Part shown: piece after piece, positions 1 to 14,536 of the stretch
How positions within the stretch are numbered: the first letter of the stretch is position 1
Layout: the number at the start of each line of letters is the position of its first letter
Assembly (NCBI GenBank): GCA_902623255.1
Contig: CACNSY010000008.1
Location: 28,637 to 92,636 of the forward strand
Length of the DNA stretch: 64,000 nucleotides
Source: an uncultured Alphaproteobacteria bacterium
GTDB taxonomy: Bacteria > Pseudomonadota > Alphaproteobacteria > HIMB59 > GCA-002718135
Reading direction: 5' to 3'
Translations under genes and position numbers: made by a program
The notes under the pieces: model-generated
Databases searched by the model: none
What the model saw: only the letters and a program-made list of their open reading frames with translations
Told to the model about the DNA's origin: nothing

Positions 1-805
1 CAGGTTTACCAACATACACAGTTCTGGATAAGGCACAGTGATAACGATGTTTCACACCACCTAATTCAATAATTGTTCCTTCATTATTTTCAAATTTTTT
101 ATCACTAGGAGTTAAGTGTGATGCTGATGCTGATCTCCCACTTGCAAGTATTATACCTAAACCTGAATATTCTCCTCCAATTTGTGTTGAATCATTTCCA
201 GCAATGAGAGTATTTTGAATTTTTCCTGCAACTGTACTTTGTTTTACACCTTCTTTTATTGAAGCAAATGCTGTTGTCATTCCTGCTTTCACAAGTGTGC
301 CAGCATCTTTCATAAATTTTATTTCATTTTCAGATTTTACATATCTTACCCAATTAATTAGAAGATGTGCATTAATAAATTTAGCATTCGTTAAATTATC
401 TTTTAATCTCCTATGATTTTCTGCAGTATAATAATAGCTATCCATTTCGACGCCAATATTTTTACTTGACCAATTTTTGTCTTTAAATAATTTAACTACA
501 TAATCATATGGATGTAATGGTGGTGATTGAATAAGTCGCTCAGGATAACCAAATATATTTTCTTCATTTAAAAAAGTTGTAATCCTTGCACCATTCGAAT
601 CTTGCTTTCTTCCAAACCAAAATGGTTGATCTTCATCTATAGAAATTATTACTCCTTGTGGAACATAAAATGACCATCCATCATAGCCAGTTAGATAATT
701 CATATTAGAGGGATCAGTAGTTAATAGAATATCAACACCTCTTTTATTCATAGACTGTTTTACTTTTGCAATTCTTGAATTAAATTCTTCTTGTGAAAAA
801 ATCAT
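1..805 (-). CDS. doeA: Ectoine hydrolase DoeA/EutD-like, M24 family (partial, C-terminus outside window)
   Basis: Manual translation from ATG at 805: MIFSQEEFNSRIAKVKQSMNKRGVDILLTTDPSNMNYLTGYDGWSFYVPQGVIISIDEDQPFWFGRKQDSNGARITTFL..., matching the remembered DoeA N-terminal pattern (TDPxNMNxLTGYDGWSFYV, GRxQDxNGARxTT). Open to the window edge and not in the ORF track. Confidence 0.85.
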   Translation of the reverse strand, partial: MIFSQEEFNSRIAKVKQSMNKRGVDILLTTDPSNMNYLTGYDGWSFYVPQGVIISIDEDQPFWFGRKQDSNGARITTFLNEENIFGYPERLIQSPPLHPYDYVVKLFKDKNWSSKNIGVEMDSYYYTAENHRRLKDNLTNAKFINAHLLINWVRYVKSENEIKFMKDAGTLVKAGMTTAFASIKEGVKQSTVAGKIQNTLIAGNDSTQIGGEYSGLGIILASGRSASASHLTPSDKKFENNEGTIIELGGVKHRYHCALSRTVYVGKP

Positions 806-824
806 AATTTTTTAGATAATCTCT

Positions 825-1388
825 TTATCTCTCTAATACTTCATATCCAAACTGATCTGCTGTTTCAAGAAGGATCTCCCAAATTGATAAGGCAAAACCT
901 CTTGGTATATATAAACAGTAATTATTAGAGGATATTTTAAATAACTTAACACTGACATGATGAATGGCTGTGCTAGCAGAAGATAAATCTGGAAAATTCC
1001 TAGGTCTTAAATCAATTGGAAGATGTCTATTTAAAAATAATGATGAATTATCTCCTGATATTTCAATACCTGTGAAAGCATGAGACATGTCTAAAATTGT
1101 TGCGATTTGCTCACTTATTTCAATTTCTTTATTAAATAGCCACCATTTCAAAGGTTCCATTCTCCATAATGATTTATTTTCAAATATTATCCCTTTATTA
1201 AAACTAGGAATATTTTTAATTTTTAGTTCTTTTGATAGTAAATTATTCATTTCATCAATTTTGTCAGGCCAACAGGCAATTTGCAAAATTTCTAAACTTT
1301 TTAATTCTTTAAATGTTAGAGATTGTTTGTCGCTTGATGAATATTTTCCAACCTTATAAATTGTTTCTAGTGCAGAATGTCTATGCAT
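825..1388 (-). CDS. soxG: Sarcosine oxidase gamma subunit
   Basis: ORF 825..1412; likely start MHRHSALE at 1388, overlapping the soxA end. Position after soxBDA and SoxG-like tail (STAIHHVSVKLFKISSNNYCLYIPRGFALSIWEILLETADQFGYEV). Confidence 0.85.
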   Translation of the reverse strand: MHRHSALETIYKVGKYSSSDKQSLTFKELKSLEILQIACWPDKIDEMNNLLSKELKIKNIPSFNKGIIFENKSLWRMEPLKWWLFNKEIEISEQIATILDMSHAFTGIEISGDNSSLFLNRHLPIDLRPRNFPDLSSASTAIHHVSVKLFKISSNNYCLYIPRGFALSIWEILLETADQFGYEVLER

Positions 1389-4338
1389 ACATTCGTTCTC
1401 CTTTAGGATCAATCATATGTGGTGAAACAACTTTTAAATTCATTTGTTTATTTCTTACAGGATCTGCCCCAACTAAATTGGTATCTTTCCATTTATCTAA
1501 ACCACCTTTGACAAAACCTAATCCAATCCAATGTCCAAGTTCAGGAGAATAAGTAACTGAGGTAATTCTTCCGATACCCTGTCCTTTAATATTATTTTTT
1601 TCACAGACAATAGTTCCAGCATTAAAAGTTTCTTTTAAGTTTGTTGGAAAGAAACCTACTAGAATTTCTCGATCATTATTTTTTAATACTCCTCGTTTTC
1701 TCATTGCGCTTCCAATATATGATTTTTTTGTAGAAGCCATTTTGCTTAAACCTGCATCATCAATTGTTACCCTTCCATCAAGCTCAGCGGCTGTTACATG
1801 ACCTTTTTCAACTCTAAGTGCACCTAAAGCTTCTAATCCATATAAACATCCATCATATTTTTTTGCATTTTCCCAAATTAGGTCCATCATTGTATTAGCA
1901 AAATCTGATTTGACATAAACTTCAAAAGCTAATTCACCTGAAAAACTAATTCTTGCAATTCTACAAGGAATATTACCTTTAAGAAATGTTGAAGTAACAC
2001 CCATAAAAGGTAAGTTATTATTAGTTACAACCAAAGAATCATCGACACAATTATTGAGAACTTCTCTAGATTTAGGTCCTGCAACTGATACGCCTGCCCA
2101 TTGTTCAGAAACACTAGTCACATTAACATTAAGATCTGTCCATCTAGTTTGAAGTAATTCTTCTAACCATGACATCACTTTTGCAGCTTCACCTGTAGAC
2201 GTCGTCATAAAATATTCATTTTCTGCTAATCTCCAAGATGTACCATCATCCATTACAATACCGTCATCACGCAACATGATACCGTATCTAGCTTTTCCAA
2301 CTTGTAGTTTTGAAAAACTATTCGAATAAATTCTATTTAAAAATTCAGTAGAGTCTGGTCCTTGAATAGCAATTTTGCCTAATGATGTTATATCACAAAT
2401 TCCAACTGTTTTTCTTACTGTTGATGCTTCTCTTATATAAGAGTCACTTAAAGTTTCATTTTCTTTGGGATAATACCAAGGTCTTTGATACAATCCAACT
2501 TCAATCATTTTTGCACCATGATCAATATTCCATTGATGCATTGGTGTTACTCTTAACGGCCTAAAATGTTTTCCAACATTTCTTCCGCTTAAGGCACCTA
2601 TAGATACAGGAGTATAAGGAGGCCTGAAAACAGTAGTCCCAACTTCTGGAATTTCTTTATTTAAAAGTTCAGCCATTAAAGATAATCCAATGATATTTCC
2701 CATTTTTCCTTGATCGTTTGCCATACCTAAAGTTGTGTATCTTTTAAGATGCTCTACCGAAATGAAACCTTCACGATGCGCGAGTCTTACGTCATCTGTC
2801 GTTACATCATGTTGATAATCTACAAAACTTTTTGATCTAGATTTTTTATATTTTACTTCATACAGTGGTTGTATGGGATTTTTCCATCCACCAGGTTTTG
2901 GGAAAAAATAATTTGTTTTAGAAATACCTAAACGGTTCAACGCATCAGTAGTTCCTGCTATCCCAGAAGCAATACAATCATTTTTATTCCATAAACCTCT
3001 AGAAGAACCTACCATTGTAATATTTTCTTTTTTGTCACTTGGTAAAAAACAAGCATTGTTATAATCCCATTTAGGCTTTACGCCTCTGTGAGATAACAAA
3101 TGTACAGCAGGTGACCAGCCACCTGATAATAGAACCTGATCACAATCTATAGTTTCAGATTTATTAATAGTTTCACTTTTTGATATATCTAAACTATGAA
3201 TTTTTTTTGAACCATTAATATTATAAGGTACATACCCTTTTCTAATTTCAAAACTTTTATTTGTCTCAATTTCAAAATTAGTTCGTGAATCAAGAACAGT
3301 TACATTGGCCCCAGCTTCTGATAATTGATTTGCTGTTTCATAAACAGAATCATTATTTGTAGCTATCACAATTCTTTTTCCGGTGAGTACACCATATCTA
3401 TTCAAATAATGCTTTGATGCATTTACAGTCATTACACCAGGAATATCATTATTATTAAATGCAATGTGTCTTTCAATTGCTCCAGCACCAACAATTATAT
3501 GCTTTGCTCTAATGGTCCAAAATCTTTGGCGTGGAATGTTTACATTTGGTGCTGATATATGGTCTGTTACTCTCTCTAATAAACCAACAACGCAATTATC
3601 ATATAATCCGAATGCAGTAGTTCTAGTCATTATTTTTATGCCTAGATTTTCAAGTTGATTTTTAATTTGTGAGTTATCAAAATCATTTTCTGCAAGTTGA
3701 TTTCCTCCAATAAGACTATCTTGCTCAACTAAAATAACATCTAATTTTTTTTCTGCTGCCTCTATTGCTGCTGCAACACCAGCAGGTCCTGATCCTACAA
3801 CAATTAAATCACAAAAATCATGAGCATGCTCATAAGTATCTGGATCAGGTAAACCAGAAGCACTTCCCATTCCCGCAGCTTTTCTAATAAACTTTTCAAA
3901 AAACATCCATATGGCTGTTCCTTTACCCCATTCAAGTGGAGGTATTCCCATGAAAGTTTTATAATAAAAACCAGCTGCAAAAAATCTACCTAAGTAATTA
4001 TTTATTCCCGCTAGATCAAAATTTACGTTTGGAAATGCATTTTGACCACTTGCTTCCAAACCATTATATAATTCTTGTGTTGTTGCTCTTACATTCGGAT
4101 CTCTTCTATCTTTTGAACCAATTGTAACTAAGGCGCCGGATTCCTCGACTCCACTAGAAAATATTCCTCTTGGTCTATGATATTTAAAACTTCTTCCAAC
4201 TATACCGATATTATTTGCTAGTAATGCCGATGCTAGTGTATCTCCTTCAAAGCCTTTGTAATTTTTTTTATCCCAACTAAAGGATAAAATTTTATCTCTA
4301 TTAATTTTTCCATAGTTATCTATTCTTCTTGTCTTCAT
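1381..4338 (-). CDS. soxA: Sarcosine oxidase alpha subunit (heterotetrameric)
   Basis: 985 aa; FAD-binding VVGSGPAGVAAAIEAAEKKLDVILVEQ, C-terminal GcvT-like aminomethyltransferase domain; soxBDAG order. Confidence 0.95.
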   Translation of the reverse strand: MKTRRIDNYGKINRDKILSFSWDKKNYKGFEGDTLASALLANNIGIVGRSFKYHRPRGIFSSGVEESGALVTIGSKDRRDPNVRATTQELYNGLEASGQNAFPNVNFDLAGINNYLGRFFAAGFYYKTFMGIPPLEWGKGTAIWMFFEKFIRKAAGMGSASGLPDPDTYEHAHDFCDLIVVGSGPAGVAAAIEAAEKKLDVILVEQDSLIGGNQLAENDFDNSQIKNQLENLGIKIMTRTTAFGLYDNCVVGLLERVTDHISAPNVNIPRQRFWTIRAKHIIVGAGAIERHIAFNNNDIPGVMTVNASKHYLNRYGVLTGKRIVIATNNDSVYETANQLSEAGANVTVLDSRTNFEIETNKSFEIRKGYVPYNINGSKKIHSLDISKSETINKSETIDCDQVLLSGGWSPAVHLLSHRGVKPKWDYNNACFLPSDKKENITMVGSSRGLWNKNDCIASGIAGTTDALNRLGISKTNYFFPKPGGWKNPIQPLYEVKYKKSRSKSFVDYQHDVTTDDVRLAHREGFISVEHLKRYTTLGMANDQGKMGNIIGLSLMAELLNKEIPEVGTTVFRPPYTPVSIGALSGRNVGKHFRPLRVTPMHQWNIDHGAKMIEVGLYQRPWYYPKENETLSDSYIREASTVRKTVGICDITSLGKIAIQGPDSTEFLNRIYSNSFSKLQVGKARYGIMLRDDGIVMDDGTSWRLAENEYFMTTSTGEAAKVMSWLEELLQTRWTDLNVNVTSVSEQWAGVSVAGPKSREVLNNCVDDSLVVTNNNLPFMGVTSTFLKGNIPCRIARISFSGELAFEVYVKSDFANTMMDLIWENAKKYDGCLYGLEALGALRVEKGHVTAAELDGRVTIDDAGLSKMASTKKSYIGSAMRKRGVLKNNDREILVGFFPTNLKETFNAGTIVCEKNNIKGQGIGRITSVTYSPELGHWIGLGFVKGGLDKWKDTNLVGADPVRNKQMNLKVVSPHMIDPKGERMYA

Positions 4339-4619
4339 TTATTATTTTCTACAACCTTCTGTAAATCCGGATGGCATGGTTTGACACTTTTTATTTCATG
4401 AGTGACAGTAGAACGTTCAACTACCAACCACATTCTACATCCATTAGAATGATGCCATGTTTCAAATTGAAAACCTTTTATATTTTTTCTGAAAAATATA
4501 GCTTCAGTCCATTCTTTCTCTGATGCATCTAACGAAGGATAATTGATTGTTGCATCTCCTCCATAACTAAATTCACTATGATCTCTTTCACCACAATAAG
4601 GACAATTGATTCTAATCAT
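4335..4619 (-). CDS. soxD: Sarcosine oxidase delta subunit
   Basis: 94 aa; MIRINCPYCGERDHSEFSYGGDA...; between soxB and soxA. Confidence 0.95.
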   Translation of the reverse strand: MIRINCPYCGERDHSEFSYGGDATINYPSLDASEKEWTEAIFFRKNIKGFQFETWHHSNGCRMWLVVERSTVTHEIKSVKPCHPDLQKVVENNK

Positions 4620-5885
4620 TTAACCGTGCAATTTTGGATCAGGTCCTGCGCCACGTTCATCAATATTGATACCTTTTTCAAATCTTTCTAAATTATGATT
4701 TTGTACGTAGTTATGCGGGTTTTCATTTGCAATTAAGTCGGCAAAATACCAACCTGATGCAGGACTAGCTTTGAAACCACCATAGTTCCAACCAGCATTT
4801 AAATAGAGATTAGATATTGGCGTTTTACAAATAAAAAATGATCCGTCCATTGTCATGTCCATAACACCTGCCCAATGACGAAGTAATCTTATTCTTCCAA
4901 GTGAAGGAAATATTGCCATGGCCGCTTCGGCAACATCTTGAACCATAGGAAGATTTCCTCTTTGAGCATATGATTTATACCAGTCAAGATCACCACCAAA
5001 CACCATGCTTCCTTTATCTGACTGCGATATATAGAAATGCGCACCACCTACGCCATAAACAACAACCTGGTCTAGAAGTGGTTTAACAGCCTCAGATACA
5101 AATGCTTGTAGTTTATGGGATTCAATTGGCAGGTTACCTAATTCTGCCATTTGCCATAATACTGAAGTATTGCCTGCAACAGCAAATCCTATTTTCTTTC
5201 CTTTTATAATTCCTCTTGAAGTTTGAATACTTTCAATATTTCCATTCTTTCTTGTAAAACCTGTAACTTCACAATTTTGAAGAATGTCTACACCTAATGT
5301 ATCTGCAGCCCTTGCATAACCCCATGCAACTGCATCGTGTCTTGCATTACCTGCTCTTTTTTGAACTGCAGCTCCAAGTATTGGAAATCTAGAATTATGA
5401 TAATTTAAATGTGGAATTTTTTTCTTTAAAGTTTTTAAATCCCAAAGTTCTGCATCAGTTCCATGGAGTCGCATAATATTATAAATCCGTGAAACTGAAT
5501 CTTTAGCACCAGGGCTATGAAATAACGAGACATGAGCTCGTTGGCTAAACATTACATTATAATTTAATTCATGACTTAAATTTTCCCATAACTTTAAAGA
5601 ATGTTCATAAAATTCGTGATTGCCTGGCATCATATAATTTGATCTTACAATAGTTGTATTACGTCCAGCGTTTCCTCCACCAATCCAGCCTTTTTCTAAG
5701 ACAGCTACATTTTTTATATTATGATTCTTTGCTAAATAATATGCCGTGGCAAGACCGTGTAGACCTCCCCCAATTATTACAACATCATAACTATTTTTTG
5801 GTTCTGGATCACGCCATTGTCTAGTCCAATAAGACTGACCATTTAAACCGTTTTTAATTACATTCCAGGCATTAAATTTTGTCAT
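4620..5885 (-). CDS. soxB: Sarcosine oxidase beta subunit
   Basis: 421 aa; YDVVIIGGGLHGLATAYYLAKNH FAD motif; GWNYGGFKASPASGWYFADLIA. Confidence 0.95.
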   Translation of the reverse strand: MTKFNAWNVIKNGLNGQSYWTRQWRDPEPKNSYDVVIIGGGLHGLATAYYLAKNHNIKNVAVLEKGWIGGGNAGRNTTIVRSNYMMPGNHEFYEHSLKLWENLSHELNYNVMFSQRAHVSLFHSPGAKDSVSRIYNIMRLHGTDAELWDLKTLKKKIPHLNYHNSRFPILGAAVQKRAGNARHDAVAWGYARAADTLGVDILQNCEVTGFTRKNGNIESIQTSRGIIKGKKIGFAVAGNTSVLWQMAELGNLPIESHKLQAFVSEAVKPLLDQVVVYGVGGAHFYISQSDKGSMVFGGDLDWYKSYAQRGNLPMVQDVAEAAMAIFPSLGRIRLLRHWAGVMDMTMDGSFFICKTPISNLYLNAGWNYGGFKASPASGWYFADLIANENPHNYVQNHNLERFEKGINIDERGAGPDPKLHG

Positions 5886-5961: not shown

Positions 5962-6987
5962 TTAACTTGATGAATCTGGCCATGTGTCATTTAATCTATA
6001 ACCTTCTGGAAAAGGATCATCCTTATCGATATATAAAATTTGTTTTCCAGTAATAAATGCACTACCTGTTATTTTTGGAATAATACAATTTTTGTTATTA
6101 ATTGTAATTTCCTTTTCAATACTTGCTTTAAATGTAGATCCTATAATAGACTTTGATATAAATTCTTCATTTATTTGTATTTCATTTTTTTCTCTCATTA
6201 CTGCTAATCTTGCTGAAGTGCCTGTACCACAAGGTGAGCGATCAAGTTTTCCAGGTCGTATAACAACTGTATTTAATCCTGTAAGTAATGATTGATTATT
6301 TTTTTTTAAAGGTTCAATAAATTGGCAAAAGGAAAGATAATCTAATCCTTTAATAGTAGGATGTTCAAATCCTATAGATGCGTTTGCTTCTTTCAATAAT
6401 TCTTTGGCAACATTTACAAATTTATTTGCATTCTTTGGTTCAATTTTAAGATTAAAATCACTAGCATTACAAATTAAAAAACTGTCACCTCCAAAAGCGG
6501 TACTTACTTTAATTGTGCCATAATTTTTAGTCTTTAAATCTACATCTATTTTATCTGCAAAGCAGGCAAGATTAGTTAAAGTGACACTTTTAACTTTCTT
6601 ATTTTCACAATCAGCAACAACTTTTATTAAACCACCGGGAGCTTCAAGTGTAAGCATGCTTTTAGGATATTTCATTTGAACAATATTTTTTTCTAATAAG
6701 ACTGTTGTTACACAAATTGCATTTGATCCGCTCATGGGAGGATTATCTTCTGGTTCCATAATTACAAATCCAGCATCTGCATTTTTATTTGAAGGTTCTA
6801 AAATAATATTACAATGTTTAAAGACCCCTCCTCGAGGTTCATTTAAAAAAAAATTTCTCCATTTTTTATCTAAAAAAAGTTTTTTAGAAGCTTCCTCAGG
6901 TGAATTAAACTTCAAACCTTTAATTCCAATTACGACATCCCCAATTTCACCACAGCAATGTGTGTTAAATACTGTGATTTCATCCAT
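5962..6987 (-). CDS. Proline racemase / hydroxyproline epimerase / trans-3-hydroxyproline dehydratase family protein (Ser/Cys type)
   Basis: 341 aa; PPMSGSNAICVTTVLL (Ser at first catalytic position) and DRSPCGTGTSARLAVM (Cys at second). Confidence 0.9.
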   Translation of the reverse strand: MDEITVFNTHCCGEIGDVVIGIKGLKFNSPEEASKKLFLDKKWRNFFLNEPRGGVFKHCNIILEPSNKNADAGFVIMEPEDNPPMSGSNAICVTTVLLEKNIVQMKYPKSMLTLEAPGGLIKVVADCENKKVKSVTLTNLACFADKIDVDLKTKNYGTIKVSTAFGGDSFLICNASDFNLKIEPKNANKFVNVAKELLKEANASIGFEHPTIKGLDYLSFCQFIEPLKKNNQSLLTGLNTVVIRPGKLDRSPCGTGTSARLAVMREKNEIQINEEFISKSIIGSTFKASIEKEITINNKNCIIPKITGSAFITGKQILYIDKDDPFPEGYRLNDTWPDSSS

Positions 6988-8137
6988 GTGGAATTATTAG
7001 ATCATCAATATTTTTAGAATGATGTGTAATTTGTTCGTATCCATCTTTTGTTATAATAAAGCTATCACCAACTTGTGATCTAAAATTATTTGCACTTGCC
7101 CCGCCATCAACAGCAAATACCATTCCAGGCTCAAGAACTGTTTTGTTCCCAACTACTAATTGTGGTTCCTCTAAAAAGCTAAAGCCTGTACCTCTTCCAC
7201 ATCGAAATGTAGGATAAGGGTATCCCTCAGACTGTATAGTATCTGCATAAGCAGCATGAACTTCTTCAGCTGTTACTCCAGGACCAAGAATTTCAAGAGC
7301 AGCTTTTTGAGATTTAACTGCAGTCTCAAAAGCTTTTATTTGTTCATCTGATTGAATTTCTTCTACCCAAAATATTCTGTCAAAACCTAATTTAAACCTA
7401 TGAAAATTTGTAGAACCACAATAACATACAAATACGGGATCACCTTTTTGTATAATTTTGGTCGAAGCGCGATGGTGAGTTTTAGGTAAATCATGACCCG
7501 ATGTCATAACAGGCAAAAAATGAATATTTGGAGACATATTGATATTATCAGGATAAAATTCTTTTAAAAGATCTGCTGCTTTTCTTGTTCCAGCTTGTGA
7601 TTGTGCAAGTGCAACCTCATACTCAGGAACATTATGGCCAATTGTTTTTTTTGCTGCCTCCATCATAGCCATACCAACTTCGCCGGCATGCCGAGCTATA
7701 TTCAATTCATGATTAGATTTAATCATTCTTATATTATCTATTAATTTGGTTAAATCCCCAGGATGATCTTGAAGTAATTCGTCTAAATAACTTTTAACCA
7801 TTGGATTGATTTTAAATTTTTCAATAAAAATATTTTTATGCTGATTAATAATTTGAGGTAATAATTCTCTCCATTCATTTCCAATACCATCATTCCATGT
7901 TTCGACTGTATCCACAGGGCAATCATCTGGTACTAATAAAACATCAAGAAGAGGTGTAATTAAGTAAGTTTTATGATCATTTGAAACAACTAAAAGTGTT
8001 GGTCGAAAAAAATCCATATGAAGGAAGTCATGATATCCTGTAAAATAATAAATAGAGTCATCATCTGTTATAATTGAGAGATCAATATTATTCTCAGACA
8101 TTTTTTTCTTAAGTTTATTTAAATTTTCAGAAAACAT
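6980..8137 (-). CDS. M24 (pita-bread fold) creatinase/ectoine-hydrolase-like protein
   Basis: 385 aa; creatinase-like NIARHAGEVGMAMMEAA...VPEYEVALAQSQAGTRKAAD; canonical metal ligand motifs substituted. Confidence 0.8.
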   Translation of the reverse strand: MFSENLNKLKKKMSENNIDLSIITDDDSIYYFTGYHDFLHMDFFRPTLLVVSNDHKTYLITPLLDVLLVPDDCPVDTVETWNDGIGNEWRELLPQIINQHKNIFIEKFKINPMVKSYLDELLQDHPGDLTKLIDNIRMIKSNHELNIARHAGEVGMAMMEAAKKTIGHNVPEYEVALAQSQAGTRKAADLLKEFYPDNINMSPNIHFLPVMTSGHDLPKTHHRASTKIIQKGDPVFVCYCGSTNFHRFKLGFDRIFWVEEIQSDEQIKAFETAVKSQKAALEILGPGVTAEEVHAAYADTIQSEGYPYPTFRCGRGTGFSFLEEPQLVVGNKTVLEPGMVFAVDGGASANNFRSQVGDSFIITKDGYEQITHHSKNIDDLIIPHG

Positions 8138-9292
8138 TTATTTTAATTGTTGTTCTACTAATTCAGTCCAATATGAAGAACCTACGACTAATAATTCGTC
8201 ATTAAAATCATAATTATCAGCATGTAAAGGTCTGGAATGCTGCTCTGATGTACCGTTACCCATTAAAACAAAGCAGCCAGGTTTTTCATTTGCCATTACT
8301 GAAAAATCTTCTGAGAATAAACGTGGTTCAATATCACCATTACATTTATCGTTTCCAAGCAATGAAACTGCAGCTTTTGTTGCAGACTCAGTTTGGTTTT
8401 TTGAATTAAAAGTTATAGGACAGGTTGTTTCATATTTAACACTACCATTAACACCATGTGCATTGCAAATGCCCTCAACAATTTGTAACATTTTTGATGC
8501 AATTTTTTCATTTGTTTCTTTTGATAAAGCTCTTGCATCACCAGTCATTTTTACCATACCCGGCAGAACGTTTTTTTTACCATCGGTTATAAATTCAGTA
8601 ATAGAAACTATACCATTATCTGCTGGATTTAATTTCCTAGAGACTATCGATTGAAGTGCTACTGCTATTTGAGAACCGACAGTTATTGCATCAACGCCCA
8701 TATGAGGTAATGCAGCATGCCCACCTTTAGCTTTTATTTCAATTTCAAATAAATTTTCACTTGCTGTGATTGCTCCTTTTCTAGTGCCAAATGTTCCAAT
8801 TTCCATGTTAGGAATATTGTGCATAGCGTAAACTTCATCAATTTTAAATTTATCAAACAAGCCCTCATCTATCATTGTTCTTGCACCAAAAGTATTTTCT
8901 TCATCAGGTTGAAAAATAAAATATACTGTGCCGTTAAAGTTACCTTTTTCTGATAAATATTTTGCTGCTCCTAATAACATAGTAGTGTGACCGTCATGTC
9001 CACATGCATGCATTCTATTATCAAACTTAGACTTATAACTAAACTCATTAGTTTCGTGTATAGGGAGAGCATCCATATCTGCTCTTATACCAATTGATTT
9101 CGAACTATTTCCTTTTTTTAAAATTCCAACTACTCCAGTCCTGGCAATACCAGAATGCACTTCTATTCCAAAATCTTTTAAAAGAGTTGAAACTTTTGCT
9201 GAAGCATATTCTTCTTCAAAACTAATTTGTGGGTGCATATGTAGATCATGACGCCATTCTACTAATTGGTTATGTAATGACTGTGTTTTCAT
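8138..9292 (-). CDS. M20 family amidohydrolase (hippurate / N-acyl-amino-acid hydrolase-like)
   Basis: 384 aa; WRHDLHMHPQISFEE, GIRADMDALPI, HACGHDGHTTMLLGAA, FQPDEE. Confidence 0.93.
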   Translation of the reverse strand: MKTQSLHNQLVEWRHDLHMHPQISFEEEYASAKVSTLLKDFGIEVHSGIARTGVVGILKKGNSSKSIGIRADMDALPIHETNEFSYKSKFDNRMHACGHDGHTTMLLGAAKYLSEKGNFNGTVYFIFQPDEENTFGARTMIDEGLFDKFKIDEVYAMHNIPNMEIGTFGTRKGAITASENLFEIEIKAKGGHAALPHMGVDAITVGSQIAVALQSIVSRKLNPADNGIVSITEFITDGKKNVLPGMVKMTGDARALSKETNEKIASKMLQIVEGICNAHGVNGSVKYETTCPITFNSKNQTESATKAAVSLLGNDKCNGDIEPRLFSEDFSVMANEKPGCFVLMGNGTSEQHSRPLHADNYDFNDELLVVGSSYWTELVEQQLK

Positions 9293-9295
9293 AAC

Positions 9296-10738
9296 CTACA
9301 TACTATTAAATTCTTTAATTTTATTGTCTAGAGAAAGCATATAATCATAATGTGAATTCCAAAATTTTTGATCTTTTCTTTTTTCAAATTCTTCAAGACT
9401 AACACCTTGTTGCTCTACCCAAGTAAAGTATCCTAAATTAAATATTCTTTTCTTATCCATGTGAGAGAGTTCAAGCATATTATCAGTGGATATTCCTGAT
9501 AAGTATTGTCCAAATAATTCAGCACAAACTATTTCATCATAATTATTATTAAAATCAGCAATGGTCTTGTTTAACTCTGACATATATAAATCTGCACCAT
9601 CAGTAGCAACCGTTATAATTGCGTCATCACTATTTAAATCCATATATTTAGCTAGTTTTATTGATGCCAATATATTTGCTATTGCTGAGAAACCAAATTC
9701 AGGAAGTCGAGAAACAAAACCAGGGTCAAAATTTTTTTTCTTAATCAAAAAATTTTTTCCTATTTCAGTATTAAAAATCATATTTAAATTATTGGTAGCT
9801 TGATCAGAAACATCGACAACAAAATCTGTATTCATTACATTATGAATAAGAGGAACATGTTTGTCACCAATTCCTTGTATATTATGTTCACCATAACCTC
9901 CGTGAAGTAATGTTGGACACTCCAAAGCTTCAACAACTGCAATCTTCGTCTGTAATTTATCTTTCAGATAATCTCCTGCTGCTAGAGTACCGCTTGATCC
10001 TGAAGCACTTACGTAAAACCTAGGCGTTAAATTACTGCTACCTTTAACTCTAAGAAATGATTTTTCAAAAGATGGGCCAGTTACAGAACGATGAATACCG
10101 TAATTATAATACTCATCAAATTGATTTATTATATCATTTTGACTATCTTTTTTTAATTCATTACAAGCATCGTAGATTTCTTTAACATTACTTTCTGTGC
10201 CTTTTGTCTTTATGATATTTTTTTTATCTTCAACCCAATTATTCAACCATTCAAATCTCTCATTACTCATTCCTTCAGGAAGTATTGCAATACTATTAAG
10301 ACCCATTATCCGAGATATTGCCACTCCACCCCTACAATAATTTCCAGTAGAAGGCCAAACTGCTTTATGTTTTTCATAATCAAAAGTGCCATTTAATATT
10401 CTTGGAAGCAAACAACCATAAGCTGCCAAAACTTTATGAGCTGTTATTAAGGGAAAATATCGTCCCATATTTACAATTATCTTTGCCTTAACACCTGTGA
10501 ATTCTGTTGGTAGCACAATATATTCAGGCTCATTTCCAAAACCTGATTGATCTCTTTTATTAAACCAATGAACTCGAAAAAGGTTAAGAGGATTGATATC
10601 ATTATTATTAATTTTTTTTAGAGAATTTTTAATATCGTCATTAATAATTTGAGGATCTTGAAGTTCACTTATACTAGGTAAGACGACTCCTTTTGATTTG
10701 AAATAGTCAGACGTTTTTTTTACTATTGCTTGACTCAT
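9296..10738 (-). CDS. PLP-dependent enzyme of the cysteine synthase / threonine dehydratase fold, substrate unknown
   Basis: 480 aa; KHKAVWPSTGNYCRGGVAISRIMGLNSIAILPEGMSNERFEW, ASGSSGTLAAGDYLKDKL. Confidence 0.75.
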   Translation of the reverse strand: MSQAIVKKTSDYFKSKGVVLPSISELQDPQIINDDIKNSLKKINNNDINPLNLFRVHWFNKRDQSGFGNEPEYIVLPTEFTGVKAKIIVNMGRYFPLITAHKVLAAYGCLLPRILNGTFDYEKHKAVWPSTGNYCRGGVAISRIMGLNSIAILPEGMSNERFEWLNNWVEDKKNIIKTKGTESNVKEIYDACNELKKDSQNDIINQFDEYYNYGIHRSVTGPSFEKSFLRVKGSSNLTPRFYVSASGSSGTLAAGDYLKDKLQTKIAVVEALECPTLLHGGYGEHNIQGIGDKHVPLIHNVMNTDFVVDVSDQATNNLNMIFNTEIGKNFLIKKKNFDPGFVSRLPEFGFSAIANILASIKLAKYMDLNSDDAIITVATDGADLYMSELNKTIADFNNNYDEIVCAELFGQYLSGISTDNMLELSHMDKKRIFNLGYFTWVEQQGVSLEEFEKRKDQKFWNSHYDYMLSLDNKIKEFNSM

Positions 10739-10741
10739 AAA

Positions 10742-11716
10742 TTAAATATTGATGCCTAAATTATTTTTTTTACAAAGATTATAAGCAAATCTAGCTATTG
10801 CAGTATCTTGTACACCAGTTCCTGTCAAATCACATATCGTTATATCTTCTTTATTTTTTCTTCCTAAACTTGGATCGTTAATTATATCGCCGAGTTCATT
10901 AAATTTTTCTTTGGAAGAAATTATTTTTTGTTTTAAAGCATGATGTAATTCACCCAAAATACTTGTTTGTAATTGATTATCAGGCACATATTGATCGCAA
11001 TGTTTTAACATATAAGGATCTAATTCATTTTTTTGTTCTGCATCTGATCCCATTGCTGTTATGTGAGTTCCTTTATTTATCCAATCAAATTCCAAAAGCG
11101 GTTTTTTACTTGGAGTCGTTGTAACAATTATTTCTGATAAGCTTGCCAATTCTTTGCAAGAAGAAGCTATATACAAATCTATATCTAAATTTTTGAAACT
11201 TTCTATTAATTGGTTCGCTTTTGTCTCATCTCTTGCCCAGACTATAATTTTATTTATTTTTCTAACTAACATTATTGCTTGAAGTTGTAATTTGGCTTGA
11301 ATTCCAGCCCCGATAATACCGACAGAATTAGCATTTTGATTTGATAAGTATTTTGTAGCTATTGCTCCTGCTATAGCTGTTCTAGTATCTGTAAGATAAC
11401 CTTCATCCAATAAAACAGATTTTACAACTCCAGTCTTTGAATCTAATAAAACCATCAGTCCATTACTAGATGGCAAACCAAGTTTTGGATTATCGAAAAA
11501 ACCTGAAGCAATTTTTATTGCAAAACTATCAAGACCCTCAACGTATGCAGCTTTAACATCTGATTCACCATGATATTTTTCAATATCAATTCTCATTATA
11601 GGCGGCATCATTACCAATCCCTTTGATAAACTTATGAAAGCCTCCTCTATTATTGTTATGAGATTTTTATTCAAATTTACATGTTGAATAATATCATTTT
11701 TATTAAGGATGAGCAT
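10742..11716 (-). CDS. eutC: Ornithine cyclodeaminase / mu-crystallin family, EutC-like
   Basis: 324 aa; DVKAAYVEGLDSFAIKIASGFFDNPKLGLPSSNGLMVLLDSKTGVVKSVLLDEGYLTDTRTAIAGA; adjacent to eutB- and eutA-like genes. Confidence 0.8.
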   Translation of the reverse strand: MLILNKNDIIQHVNLNKNLITIIEEAFISLSKGLVMMPPIMRIDIEKYHGESDVKAAYVEGLDSFAIKIASGFFDNPKLGLPSSNGLMVLLDSKTGVVKSVLLDEGYLTDTRTAIAGAIATKYLSNQNANSVGIIGAGIQAKLQLQAIMLVRKINKIIVWARDETKANQLIESFKNLDIDLYIASSCKELASLSEIIVTTTPSKKPLLEFDWINKGTHITAMGSDAEQKNELDPYMLKHCDQYVPDNQLQTSILGELHHALKQKIISSKEKFNELGDIINDPSLGRKNKEDITICDLTGTGVQDTAIARFAYNLCKKNNLGINI

Positions 11717-12665
11717 GGCTTAAAACTTTGTTAAATAGTTCCGAGTCAATATTTCCACCACAAATTAAACAAATTATATTTTTTCCTAAGTGCGATGTTA
11801 GTTTTTCTTTAACAACCATAACACTTGTTGCTGCAGCACCTTCAGATACAATTTTATGTTCTAAAAAATTTATTCTAATCCCTTCAGCTATTTTTTCTTC
11901 ACTTACTAAAACAAAATCATCAACATATTGTTGTACAATATTAAATGTAAATTTATTATCTAAACCAATACTACCTCCTAAACAATCGGCTAAAGTTTCA
12001 GTTTCCTCTACATCAACAGGTCTGCCTTCTTTTAGACTTTCATACATTGAAGGGCCTCTTTCCATAGATACAGCGATAATTTTTGTGTCAGGTTTTTGAA
12101 GTTTTATAGCCTGAGCAATTCCAGATATAAGACCACCTCCAGATGTTGGTATTATTACAGTATCAACTTCAGGAAATTCATTAAGCATTTCAAGGCCGAC
12201 TGTACCTTGACCAATAATAATATCTTCATCATCAAAAGGATGAATTAATGGGATATTTTTTTCTTTCGCAATTTGTTTAGCATACAAATCTGCTTCATCA
12301 CTATTCTTTCCAATAATTTCTACTTTAGCTCCTAATTTTTCAATAGCCTCTTTTCTATATTCTGGTACCATTGAAGACATATATATTGTTGATTGAATGC
12401 CCAATACTTTTGAAGCATAAGCAACGCCTTTGCCATGATTGCCTGTAGAAACTGCAATGACTCCTTTGTTTTTGTCATCTTCACTTAAAGAAAGAAGTTT
12501 ATTAACAGCGCCTCTTAACTTAAATGAACCAGTGATTTGAAAATTTTCTAACTTTAGTTTTACTGTAGTATTTTTTGATAAGAAATTAGAATTAATTAAT
12601 GGTGTATAATTAACATAAGGTAAAATTTTCTTATGTGCATCTTGTATTTGTTGAAGTGTAATCAA
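11703..12665 (-). CDS. eutB: Threonine/serine dehydratase family, hydroxyectoine-utilization dehydratase EutB-like
   Basis: 320 aa; KLENFQITGSFKLRGAVNKL (PLP Lys), STGNHGKGVAYASK, SGGGLISGIA; synteny with eutA/eutC. Confidence 0.8.
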   Translation of the reverse strand: MITLQQIQDAHKKILPYVNYTPLINSNFLSKNTTVKLKLENFQITGSFKLRGAVNKLLSLSEDDKNKGVIAVSTGNHGKGVAYASKVLGIQSTIYMSSMVPEYRKEAIEKLGAKVEIIGKNSDEADLYAKQIAKEKNIPLIHPFDDEDIIIGQGTVGLEMLNEFPEVDTVIIPTSGGGLISGIAQAIKLQKPDTKIIAVSMERGPSMYESLKEGRPVDVEETETLADCLGGSIGLDNKFTFNIVQQYVDDFVLVSEEKIAEGIRINFLEHKIVSEGAAATSVMVVKEKLTSHLGKNIICLICGGNIDSELFNKVLSHAHP

Positions 12666-12677
12666 TTTAAACCCTAT

Positions 12678-13433
12678 TTAATGTAATTTAAATAGTTTAC
12701 CAAAACCATCAATTTTTTGATTAATATTAGATAATCTTAATGAATCCCAAATAATAGCTTGATTACTTGAAATGATATCTGTGCTTAATTTTGACTCTAA
12801 TGTTTCGATAATATCAATTACTTTTAATGCAGTACAAGAAACAAAAATACTATCAACATCTGTTAAATTAATTGAAGAAATTGTTTGCATTAAACTTTCA
12901 TGAGTAACTTTAGCAATTTCCGAATCATAATTTAAATTAAACGAACTAAATGATTTAATTTCAAATCCACTATCAATTAAATATTTGTAAACTTTAACAT
13001 TAACATCTTTTGGATAAGGAGTAAGAACAGCAATTTTTTTATGGTTTAACAATTTAAGTGCTTTGACAGCTGCTGTAATAGGTGTCGTAATTAAAGCATC
13101 AGGTTTAGCCTTGAAAATTTCAGATCTTATTCTTTTTTCACCAATTTCAATAGTACCCGAAGTACATCCATACGCTACAACTTGTATTTTTTCATTGGGT
13201 AGTATTTGGTTTGTTGTTTCTGTAAGATGATCAGCCATCCTCATATAATTTTCATGAGTTAGAGGATTTAAAAAAGGTATCCTATTAAAAAACAGATCAA
13301 CTGGTAAATTATGGCAAATTTTTCTAAAATCCTGCTCTATAGTAAAATCCGTTGATAGTGTAATTATACCAATTCTAGAAAAGCTTGTGTCATGTAAATT
13401 GGCTTTAAAATTATTTTGATTAAAACTACCCAT
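12678..13433 (-). CDS. eutA: Asp/Glu racemase / maleate isomerase superfamily, EutA-like
   Basis: 251 aa; AYGCTSGTIEIGEKRI and FVSCTALKVIDIIETLE paired Cys motifs; adjacent to eutB/eutC. Confidence 0.8.
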   Translation of the reverse strand: MGSFNQNNFKANLHDTSFSRIGIITLSTDFTIEQDFRKICHNLPVDLFFNRIPFLNPLTHENYMRMADHLTETTNQILPNEKIQVVAYGCTSGTIEIGEKRIRSEIFKAKPDALITTPITAAVKALKLLNHKKIAVLTPYPKDVNVKVYKYLIDSGFEIKSFSSFNLNYDSEIAKVTHESLMQTISSINLTDVDSIFVSCTALKVIDIIETLESKLSTDIISSNQAIIWDSLRLSNINQKIDGFGKLFKLH

Positions 13434-14536
13434 TATTGATTTGGAAAATAATCCTCACACTCACCCTCTCTATGAACATCAGTAGTGGCACAATGTAGAC
13501 TACCCCCAAATGCATAAACGTCTCTAAAAGGAACTGGAATAACCTCCAATCCAAAACTTTCCATTTGTTTAATCATTTTTTCTTCCGTTGCTTCGACACA
13601 TATAGTTTTGGGATCAATTATCAAAACATTCATTGACAACCAGATTGATGAATAACACATAGGTGGTGGACTATTATGAATAGAAGGTGCTGCTTCATGA
13701 ATTTCCCATTTATTATCATCGAAAATTTTTCTTTGCTCTGATGATATTTTTCTATTTGGATTAATTATTATAACTCCTGGTTTAATGGGAGTAAAACATG
13801 CATCAATGTGAGTTGGAATTAAATCACCTGGTAAATTAATTTGATGAACACGATGATTTGGATAATGTCTTCTTAACCAATCTAAACCACTTAAATTTGA
13901 TGTAAAATTGTTATGATAAAAAAGATCTTTTCCAAAACGTAAAATTTCTGCTGCATCAAAAAGTGGTTCTTTTTCTGTCAATATCATGTCTCTATTTTCG
14001 ATTTTTTTATATCGTTCTTCTTCTGTTATACCTTCATGAAGATAATTAGACTTATAAGATTGATTTGTTAATCTTGGTTTAGGTGCCGACTCCCATCTCA
14101 TATTTTTATCTTCTGAATAATATTTTTCAAGTAGTGGCCTATAAGCAAGGTACTCAAACCATCTACATCTGTAAGACATGGGCGCCTCTAGCATTTCATT
14201 TCCTACAGTAAGAATAACATCTCTTGGAGGCATACAACCAAACATACCATCATTAGACCAATCGGGTGTCTCGATACTCTGAGAAAAATCAATAGGTGTT
14301 GGTCTATCAACTTTTATATTTAGGGAATTTAATATTTTAACAAAGTTTTCTAATTGTATATTTGCTTTATCAATTGACTCTTTTGAACGTGGTCCGTGAG
14401 ATCCTGCCATACCACTATTTTTACTAATTTTTGGTTCAAGCGCTGGTTCCATTGGAGGTATGTTGGCATTTTCAACTGCTCCAACTATAACATGCTTTAA
14501 TGGATCCCATTCATTCCAAGAATTAACTATTGTCAT
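13433..14536 (-). CDS. Amidinotransferase, L-arginine:glycine amidinotransferase (AGAT)-like
   Basis: 367 aa; LFDAAEILRFGKDLFYHNNFTSNLSGLDWLRRHYP, PTHIDACFTPIKPGVIIINP, SSIWLSMNVLIIDPK, GGSLHCATTDVHREG: Asp/His/Cys motifs as in AGAT. Confidence 0.85.
   Translation of the reverse strand: MTIVNSWNEWDPLKHVIVGAVENANIPPMEPALEPKISKNSGMAGSHGPRSKESIDKANIQLENFVKILNSLNIKVDRPTPIDFSQSIETPDWSNDGMFGCMPPRDVILTVGNEMLEAPMSYRCRWFEYLAYRPLLEKYYSEDKNMRWESAPKPRLTNQSYKSNYLHEGITEEERYKKIENRDMILTEKEPLFDAAEILRFGKDLFYHNNFTSNLSGLDWLRRHYPNHRVHQINLPGDLIPTHIDACFTPIKPGVIIINPNRKISSEQRKIFDDNKWEIHEAAPSIHNSPPPMCYSSIWLSMNVLIIDPKTICVEATEEKMIKQMESFGLEVIPVPFRDVYAFGGSLHCATTDVHREGECEDYFPNQ

Follow-up and report, generated by a model that had tools for sequence, protein, structure and literature searches.

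Creatinase uses the M24 fold without a metal: His232 is the base, Glu262 and Glu358 contact the guanidinium group, and Arg64 and Arg335 contact the carboxylate. Loss of the metal ligands is also known from M24 pseudoenzymes. One such protein comes from Leishmania (PMC3888471). Among ectoine-degrading systems, in which the M24-fold hydrolase EutD is paired with the deacylase EutE, a 2026 survey described clusters with two eutD homologs and no eutE, and Bacillaceae clusters with an extra eutD homolog, abgB and no eutE (PMC13188858).

The protein analyzed here is encoded as a single intact ORF of 385 amino acids on the minus strand, at positions 6980–8137 of the window (the whole stretch of 64,000 nucleotides that was analyzed), in a 1.47 Mb genome assigned to the SAR11 group. 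An earlier note had recognized an M24 protein at this position, and profile searches bear this out: both domains of the fold are present, with Peptidase_M24 (PF00557) scoring 84.7 bits against a gathering cut-off of 23 and Creatinase_N (PF01321) scoring 61.4 bits against 22. No NCBIfam model reaches its cut-off (best score 84.5 bits, cut-off 630). Since the models that come closest are those for peptidases and ectoine hydrolase, it would be misleading to annotate the protein as a metallopeptidase. Near-identical copies occur in many SAR11 genomes, and a match at E ≤ 1e-20 was found in 78 of the 162 genomes of the order, many of the remaining genomes being incomplete. SAR11-type M24 genes that are 99% identical also lie on short contigs (L012 and L013) assigned to Trichodesmium and Verrucomicrobiales MAGs, probably through mis-binning.

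Our MAFFT alignment comprised 31 subfamily A proteins (close homologs, 51–100% identical to the target), 24 subfamily B proteins (more distant, about 33–43%), 30 EutD-family proteins, creatinase 1CHM (the sequence used is identical to 1CHM across residues 2–402) and three other M24 proteins from the same genome. As had been proposed from a manual alignment, the five M24 ligands D, D, H, E and E are replaced in the target, by C238 (FVCYCG), G251 (LGFDRIF), R315 (GRGTGF), D344 (AVDGG) and G357 (QVGDS). These replacements are found without exception in 31/31 subfamily A and 24/24 subfamily B proteins, and none of the 55 homologs carries the five ligands of the M24 metallopeptidases (prolidase, APP and MetAP). 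The three other M24 proteins of the genome have Asp at positions 1 and 2, His at position 3 and Glu at position 4, with Glu at position 5 in two of the three. Eleven key residues are invariant across both subfamilies (R45, H221, C238, C240, G251, D253, R254, R315, D344, G357 and D358) and all are kept in 47/47 full-length SAR11 copies, where the gene is under strong purifying selection (dN/dS 0.04–0.07). Because the replaced residues are identical in every A, B and SAR11 protein and dN/dS is this low, neither chance nor decay accounts for them; judged from these sequences, loss of the metal site is real and has become fixed in a separate M24 clade that is under selection. The protein could be a non-catalytic M24 scaffold or a regulatory protein, as M24 pseudoenzymes have likewise lost their metal ligands, although fixation of all the replaced positions across genomes and invariance of the catalytic-type His, acids and Arg make this very improbable.

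The residues that line the creatinase pocket fare differently from the metal ligands. Creatinase R64, H232, E262, E358 and D377 align with R45, H221, D253, D344 and D358 of the target in 55/55 homologs. The earlier note had placed the His of KTHHRAS at His232, and it is the first His of this motif, H221, that aligns there; the acids it had assigned to Glu262 and Glu358 also fall into place, as D253 of FDR and D344 of AVDGG, and are acidic residues but not Glu. R45, which the earlier note did not mention, aligns with Arg64, a ligand of the substrate carboxylate in creatinase, and sits in an FGRP motif common to creatinase and most A and B members (FFRP in the target itself). HHalign matched the target to creatinase with E 9.2e-34 and 26% identity, its columns for R45, H221 and D253 agreeing with those of MAFFT, and to the SAR11 EutD homolog more weakly (E 2e-22). 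By these alignments, the pocket of the target is creatinase-like. The position of creatinase Arg335 is a gap in all 55 homologs (MAFFT), and an AlphaFold model, built from a shallow alignment, reached a pLDDT of 33.9.

The CxC formed by C238 and C240, likewise not remarked on in the earlier note, is also invariant in 55/55 homologs, and C238 falls exactly at former metal ligand 1. It is conceivable that the two cysteines, perhaps with H221 or D344, bind another metal or provide a nucleophile. However, the Cys of 1CHM at the adjacent position (C250) is absent from creatinase 7YTO, so a Cys near the old ligand 1 is not by itself catalytic, and we consider a new metal or thiol site improbable.

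A maximum-likelihood tree recovers three clades with 100% support each: subfamilies A and B together, the EutD proteins (among them the SAR11 homolog) and the creatinases. The deep branching order among the three has 49% support. The target is thus outside the creatinase clade, and since metal prolidases score about as well against its profile as creatinase does (159 versus 150 bits), its overall ancestry does not indicate a creatinase origin. Nor does it belong to the EutD/DoeA family, scoring 54.6 bits on TIGR02993 (cut-off 613) and 55.3 on NF038259 (cut-off 575). The signature of that family, an invariant Glu at the D1 position and Tyr at the His position, is absent, these positions being Cys and Arg, as is the EutD catalytic-site pattern (Glu, Pro/Ala, Tyr, Met/Ile, Thr/Ser; MAFFT). 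In the 30 EutD-family proteins the His is kept, but metal position 1 is Glu, R64 is replaced by Val and E358 by Met or Ile. Given its separate clade and its low NCBIfam scores, we class the target as neither creatinase nor EutD.

The gene lies in a 12-gene operon on the minus strand that runs from position 14536 to 825. The first gene (13433–14536) encodes a 367-amino-acid protein with no NCBIfam match and only a weak Pfam match that is a homolog of human L-arginine:glycine amidinotransferase (AGAT; 1JDX, E = 1.8e-77) and of SxtG (3.1e-66); its catalytic Asp, His and Cys are conserved, at what we take to be Asp254, His303 and Cys407 of AGAT, counting positions on the alignment. It is followed by a EutA-like protein of the Asp/Glu-racemase superfamily (12678–13433; TIGR02990, 213.2 bits, cut-off 318), a EutB-like PLP dehydratase (11703–12665; 379.4 bits, cut-off 413) and a EutC-like protein of the OCD/mu-crystallin family (10742–11716), which scores 452.9 bits on PRK08291 (cut-off 408) and 414.0 on EutC (cut-off 471.65). 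The EutC-like protein is closest to imine reductases, with alanine dehydrogenase and pyrroline-2-carboxylate reductase as PDB matches; we considered and rejected ornithine cyclodeaminase, as none was matched at the threshold used. A 480-amino-acid PLP-fold protein, a distant relative of cysteine synthase (9296–10738), comes next; SAR11 operons with coverage of this position retain it. Directly before the target is an M20D amidohydrolase of 384 amino acids (8138–9292; TIGR01891, 319.7 bits, cut-off 153.75), which scores 312.2 bits on DoeB2, below the cut-off of 550, and whose nearest solved relatives are YxeP, IAA-amino acid hydrolase and N-acyl-glutamine aminoacylase.

The target is followed by a proline-racemase-family (ProR) protein (5962–6987; PF05544, 324.6 bits; T3LHypDht, 413.1 bits, cut-off 550) that is dehydratase-like, with the Ser in motif 1 (MSGS) and the Cys in SPCGTG expected for a dehydratase-type member. 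In several relatives (e.g., L136 and L138), an LDH2-family reductase gene adjoins the ProR gene. The remaining genes encode a SoxB-family FAD oxidoreductase (4620–5885; TIGR01373, 606.5 bits, cut-off 529.45), a SoxD-like delta subunit (4340–4619; TIGR01374, 104.5 bits, cut-off 116.5), a SoxA-family alpha subunit with a GcvT-like folate domain (1381–4338; TIGR01372, 1170.3 bits, cut-off 1164) and a SoxG-like gamma subunit, assigned from a weak match and its position (825–1412; PF04268, E = 0.089). After SoxG comes a EutD/DoeA homolog that is cut by the window edge (5′ part at 1–805, minus strand; TIGR02993, 462 bits, cut-off 613; 6TWK, E = 8.1e-109); the whole gene is G000:C8:28266–29441.

Other SAR11 genera keep the order of the operon, although in a few ProR is missing or has moved, and the flanking genes vary; where SAR11 loci reach that far, the M20 gene adjoins the M24 gene. 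Few cells on Earth are as abundant as those of SAR11, and their genomes are small, so retention of 12 genes across genera suggests that the operon handles a compound of genuine significance in seawater. A PotABCD-like ABC transporter lies to the left of the SAR11 cluster in L006; homologs adjoin EutD-like genes in L221, L224 and L227, which include genomes of family f24 (described below), and a further homolog lies near the B-type M24 gene of L185.

The AGAT homolog makes amidino chemistry plausible and keeps a guanidino reading alive; among the full texts searched, no paper on SAR11 and amidinotransferase was found. One possibility is that the target is a true analogue of creatinase or guanidinoacetate hydrolase that releases urea from a guanidino acid, with AGAT making or exchanging the amidino group and Sox oxidizing the N-methyl product. 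The conserved pocket residues, including the Arg64 equivalent, and the presence of an AGAT homolog with its catalytic triad and of Sox genes in the same operon are all consistent with this. So is, as weak support, the distribution of AGAT in family f24 (an alphaproteobacterial family, sampled with 199 genomes, that looks like Rhodobacteraceae), where it is present in 18/30 carriers of A- or B-type M24 genes versus 19/169 others (p 2.5e-8, ignoring kinship). However, AGAT is not linked to the M24 gene in these genomes, and the association is not reproduced class-wide, since only one non-SAR11 carrier in a 289-genome sample (G184, a 37% match) holds AGAT. The clade is separate from creatinase, and urea release would have no need of the amidase that is the conserved partner. 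As the earlier note had stated, soxB is two genes away, with ProR the one gene between. Its suggestion that the enzyme releases sarcosine from a creatine-like compound is not established: the genome has a second, canonical soxA on contig 7 that scores 1326 bits, the cluster Sox is a more divergent copy (1170 bits) that need not be the sarcosine oxidase of the cell, and the partner conserved beyond SAR11 is an amidase instead of Sox. Conversion of creatine to sarcosine is therefore possible but not favored, and we regard a creatinase analogue as unlikely.

It is also possible that the target is a second (hydroxy)ectoine hydrolase, with the EutD-like protein opening one compound, the target opening a related ring or isomer and M20 replacing EutE. 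The EutA-, EutB- and EutC-like genes and the EutD homolog argue for such a role, as does a related SAR11 operon (L138) in which EhuA, B, C and D, all four over equivalog cut-offs, lie between EutC and the PLP gene. (A BisC/TorA-like S/N-oxide reductase gene occupies the same interval, L138:1421–6828.) No EutE match was found in the 11 SAR11 genomes tested, so M20, for which DoeB2 is a leading sub-threshold match, may stand in for EutE if the substrate is ectoine-like, and the reported clusters with more than one eutD homolog and no eutE (PMC13188858) are consistent with this. Outside SAR11, however, A-type M24 genes are mostly not placed with ectoine genes, the EutD catalytic-site pattern is not shared, and the association of EutD with A-type genes in family f24 is not significant (15/18 versus 128/199 overall, p 0.06, ignoring kinship). 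We rejected as evidence the co-occurrence of EutD with the M24 gene in 26/29 genomes versus 17/142 class-wide, because the family f24 background is already 128/199. Overall, a second ectoine hydrolase seems unlikely as well. The proposal of the earlier note that the target might be a EutD-like hydrolase with a new substrate fits better than sarcosine release, although the target does not belong to the EutD family.

Partner amidases also occur beyond SAR11. In non-SAR11 loci, genes were called by an ORF heuristic and not from annotation. Of 19 loci with a subfamily A M24 gene, 11 have an M20 amidohydrolase adjacent or nearby, and the other 8 have no M20 nearby. Subfamily B genes lie next to or near a CN-hydrolase in 11/15 loci and an amidase-signature enzyme in 3/15 (14/15 together). 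An adjacent amide-hydrolyzing partner, the hydrolase-deacylase arrangement of EutD and EutE, is thus found in SAR11, in 11/19 A loci and in 14/15 B loci. The remaining neighbors (PDH genes, phosphoglucomutase, RtcB, DnaB) vary by genome and are mostly not conserved, although EutA-like genes recur beside M24 in L079, L082, L192 and L185. In L192 (11116–13457), the gene beside M20 encodes a diaminopropionate ammonia-lyase (469.7 bits against a cut-off of 276), and M24 and the EutA-like gene lie alongside, a single hint that there may be a diaminopropionate-type product. The loss and fixation of the ligand residues, the conservation of the operon and the pairing with amidases of three unrelated folds are direct observations, and the presence of three such folds beside one M24 clade suggests that the M24 product is an amide, as for EutD with EutE.

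Our preferred reading, which we hold with moderate confidence, is that the target hydrolyzes amidine/guanidine C-N bonds independently of metal, using the M24 ("pita-bread") fold and a creatinase-like pocket, and feeds a partner amidase. The identity of the residues is observed; from analogy with creatinase, we infer their roles, the chemistry and the product. R45 probably binds the carboxylate of the substrate; D253 and D344 would hold a positively charged amidinium or guanidinium group, whose carbon would be attacked by water that H221 activates. The neighboring M20D probably then cleaves the product, an amide or N-acyl amino acid, in a division of labor like that of EutD and EutE. In SAR11, the M24-M20 pair may be one step in the processing of an ectoine-like or guanidino-type compound by the operon; the substrate is probably nitrogen-rich, with an ectoine-like ring and a guanidino acid among the candidates. 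The class of chemistry put forward in the earlier note is supported, given the missing metal ligands, the creatinase-like pocket residues and the EutD-like operon logic. Against this hydrolase reading are the gap at Arg335, the replacement of both creatinase Glu by Asp and the 8/19 A loci without M20. A more ambitious version, in which marine Alphaproteobacteria widely carry a third kind of metal-free M24 hydrolase whose two invariant cysteines are catalytic (as thiol nucleophile or rebuilt thiolate site) in a SAR11 amidine/guanidino pathway, is doubtful. If the hydrolase reading is correct, the M24 fold would have a third route to metal-free function, and the reading would single out genes to test for a step in marine nitrogen cycling.

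Compared with known M24 systems, the target resembles creatinase 1CHM in its pocket: both have the fold without the metal ligands, both keep His232 and Arg64, and both are acidic at the Glu262 and Glu358 positions. It differs in having Asp at both acids, no Arg335 loop, a CxC and a His-to-Arg replacement, and in belonging to a separate clade at 26% identity. With EutD/DoeA (6TWK), it shares the M24 fold without metal ligands (in the present alignment), a deacylase gene alongside and, in SAR11, EutA-, EutB- and EutC-like neighbors. It is set apart by its score of 54.6 bits on TIGR02993 (cut-off 613), its own clade, the absence of Glu at the D1 site and its R45, where EutD has Val. Prolidase and aminopeptidase P (PepQ, M24B) have the same two-domain fold and a similar profile score, but the target lacks all five of their metal ligands.
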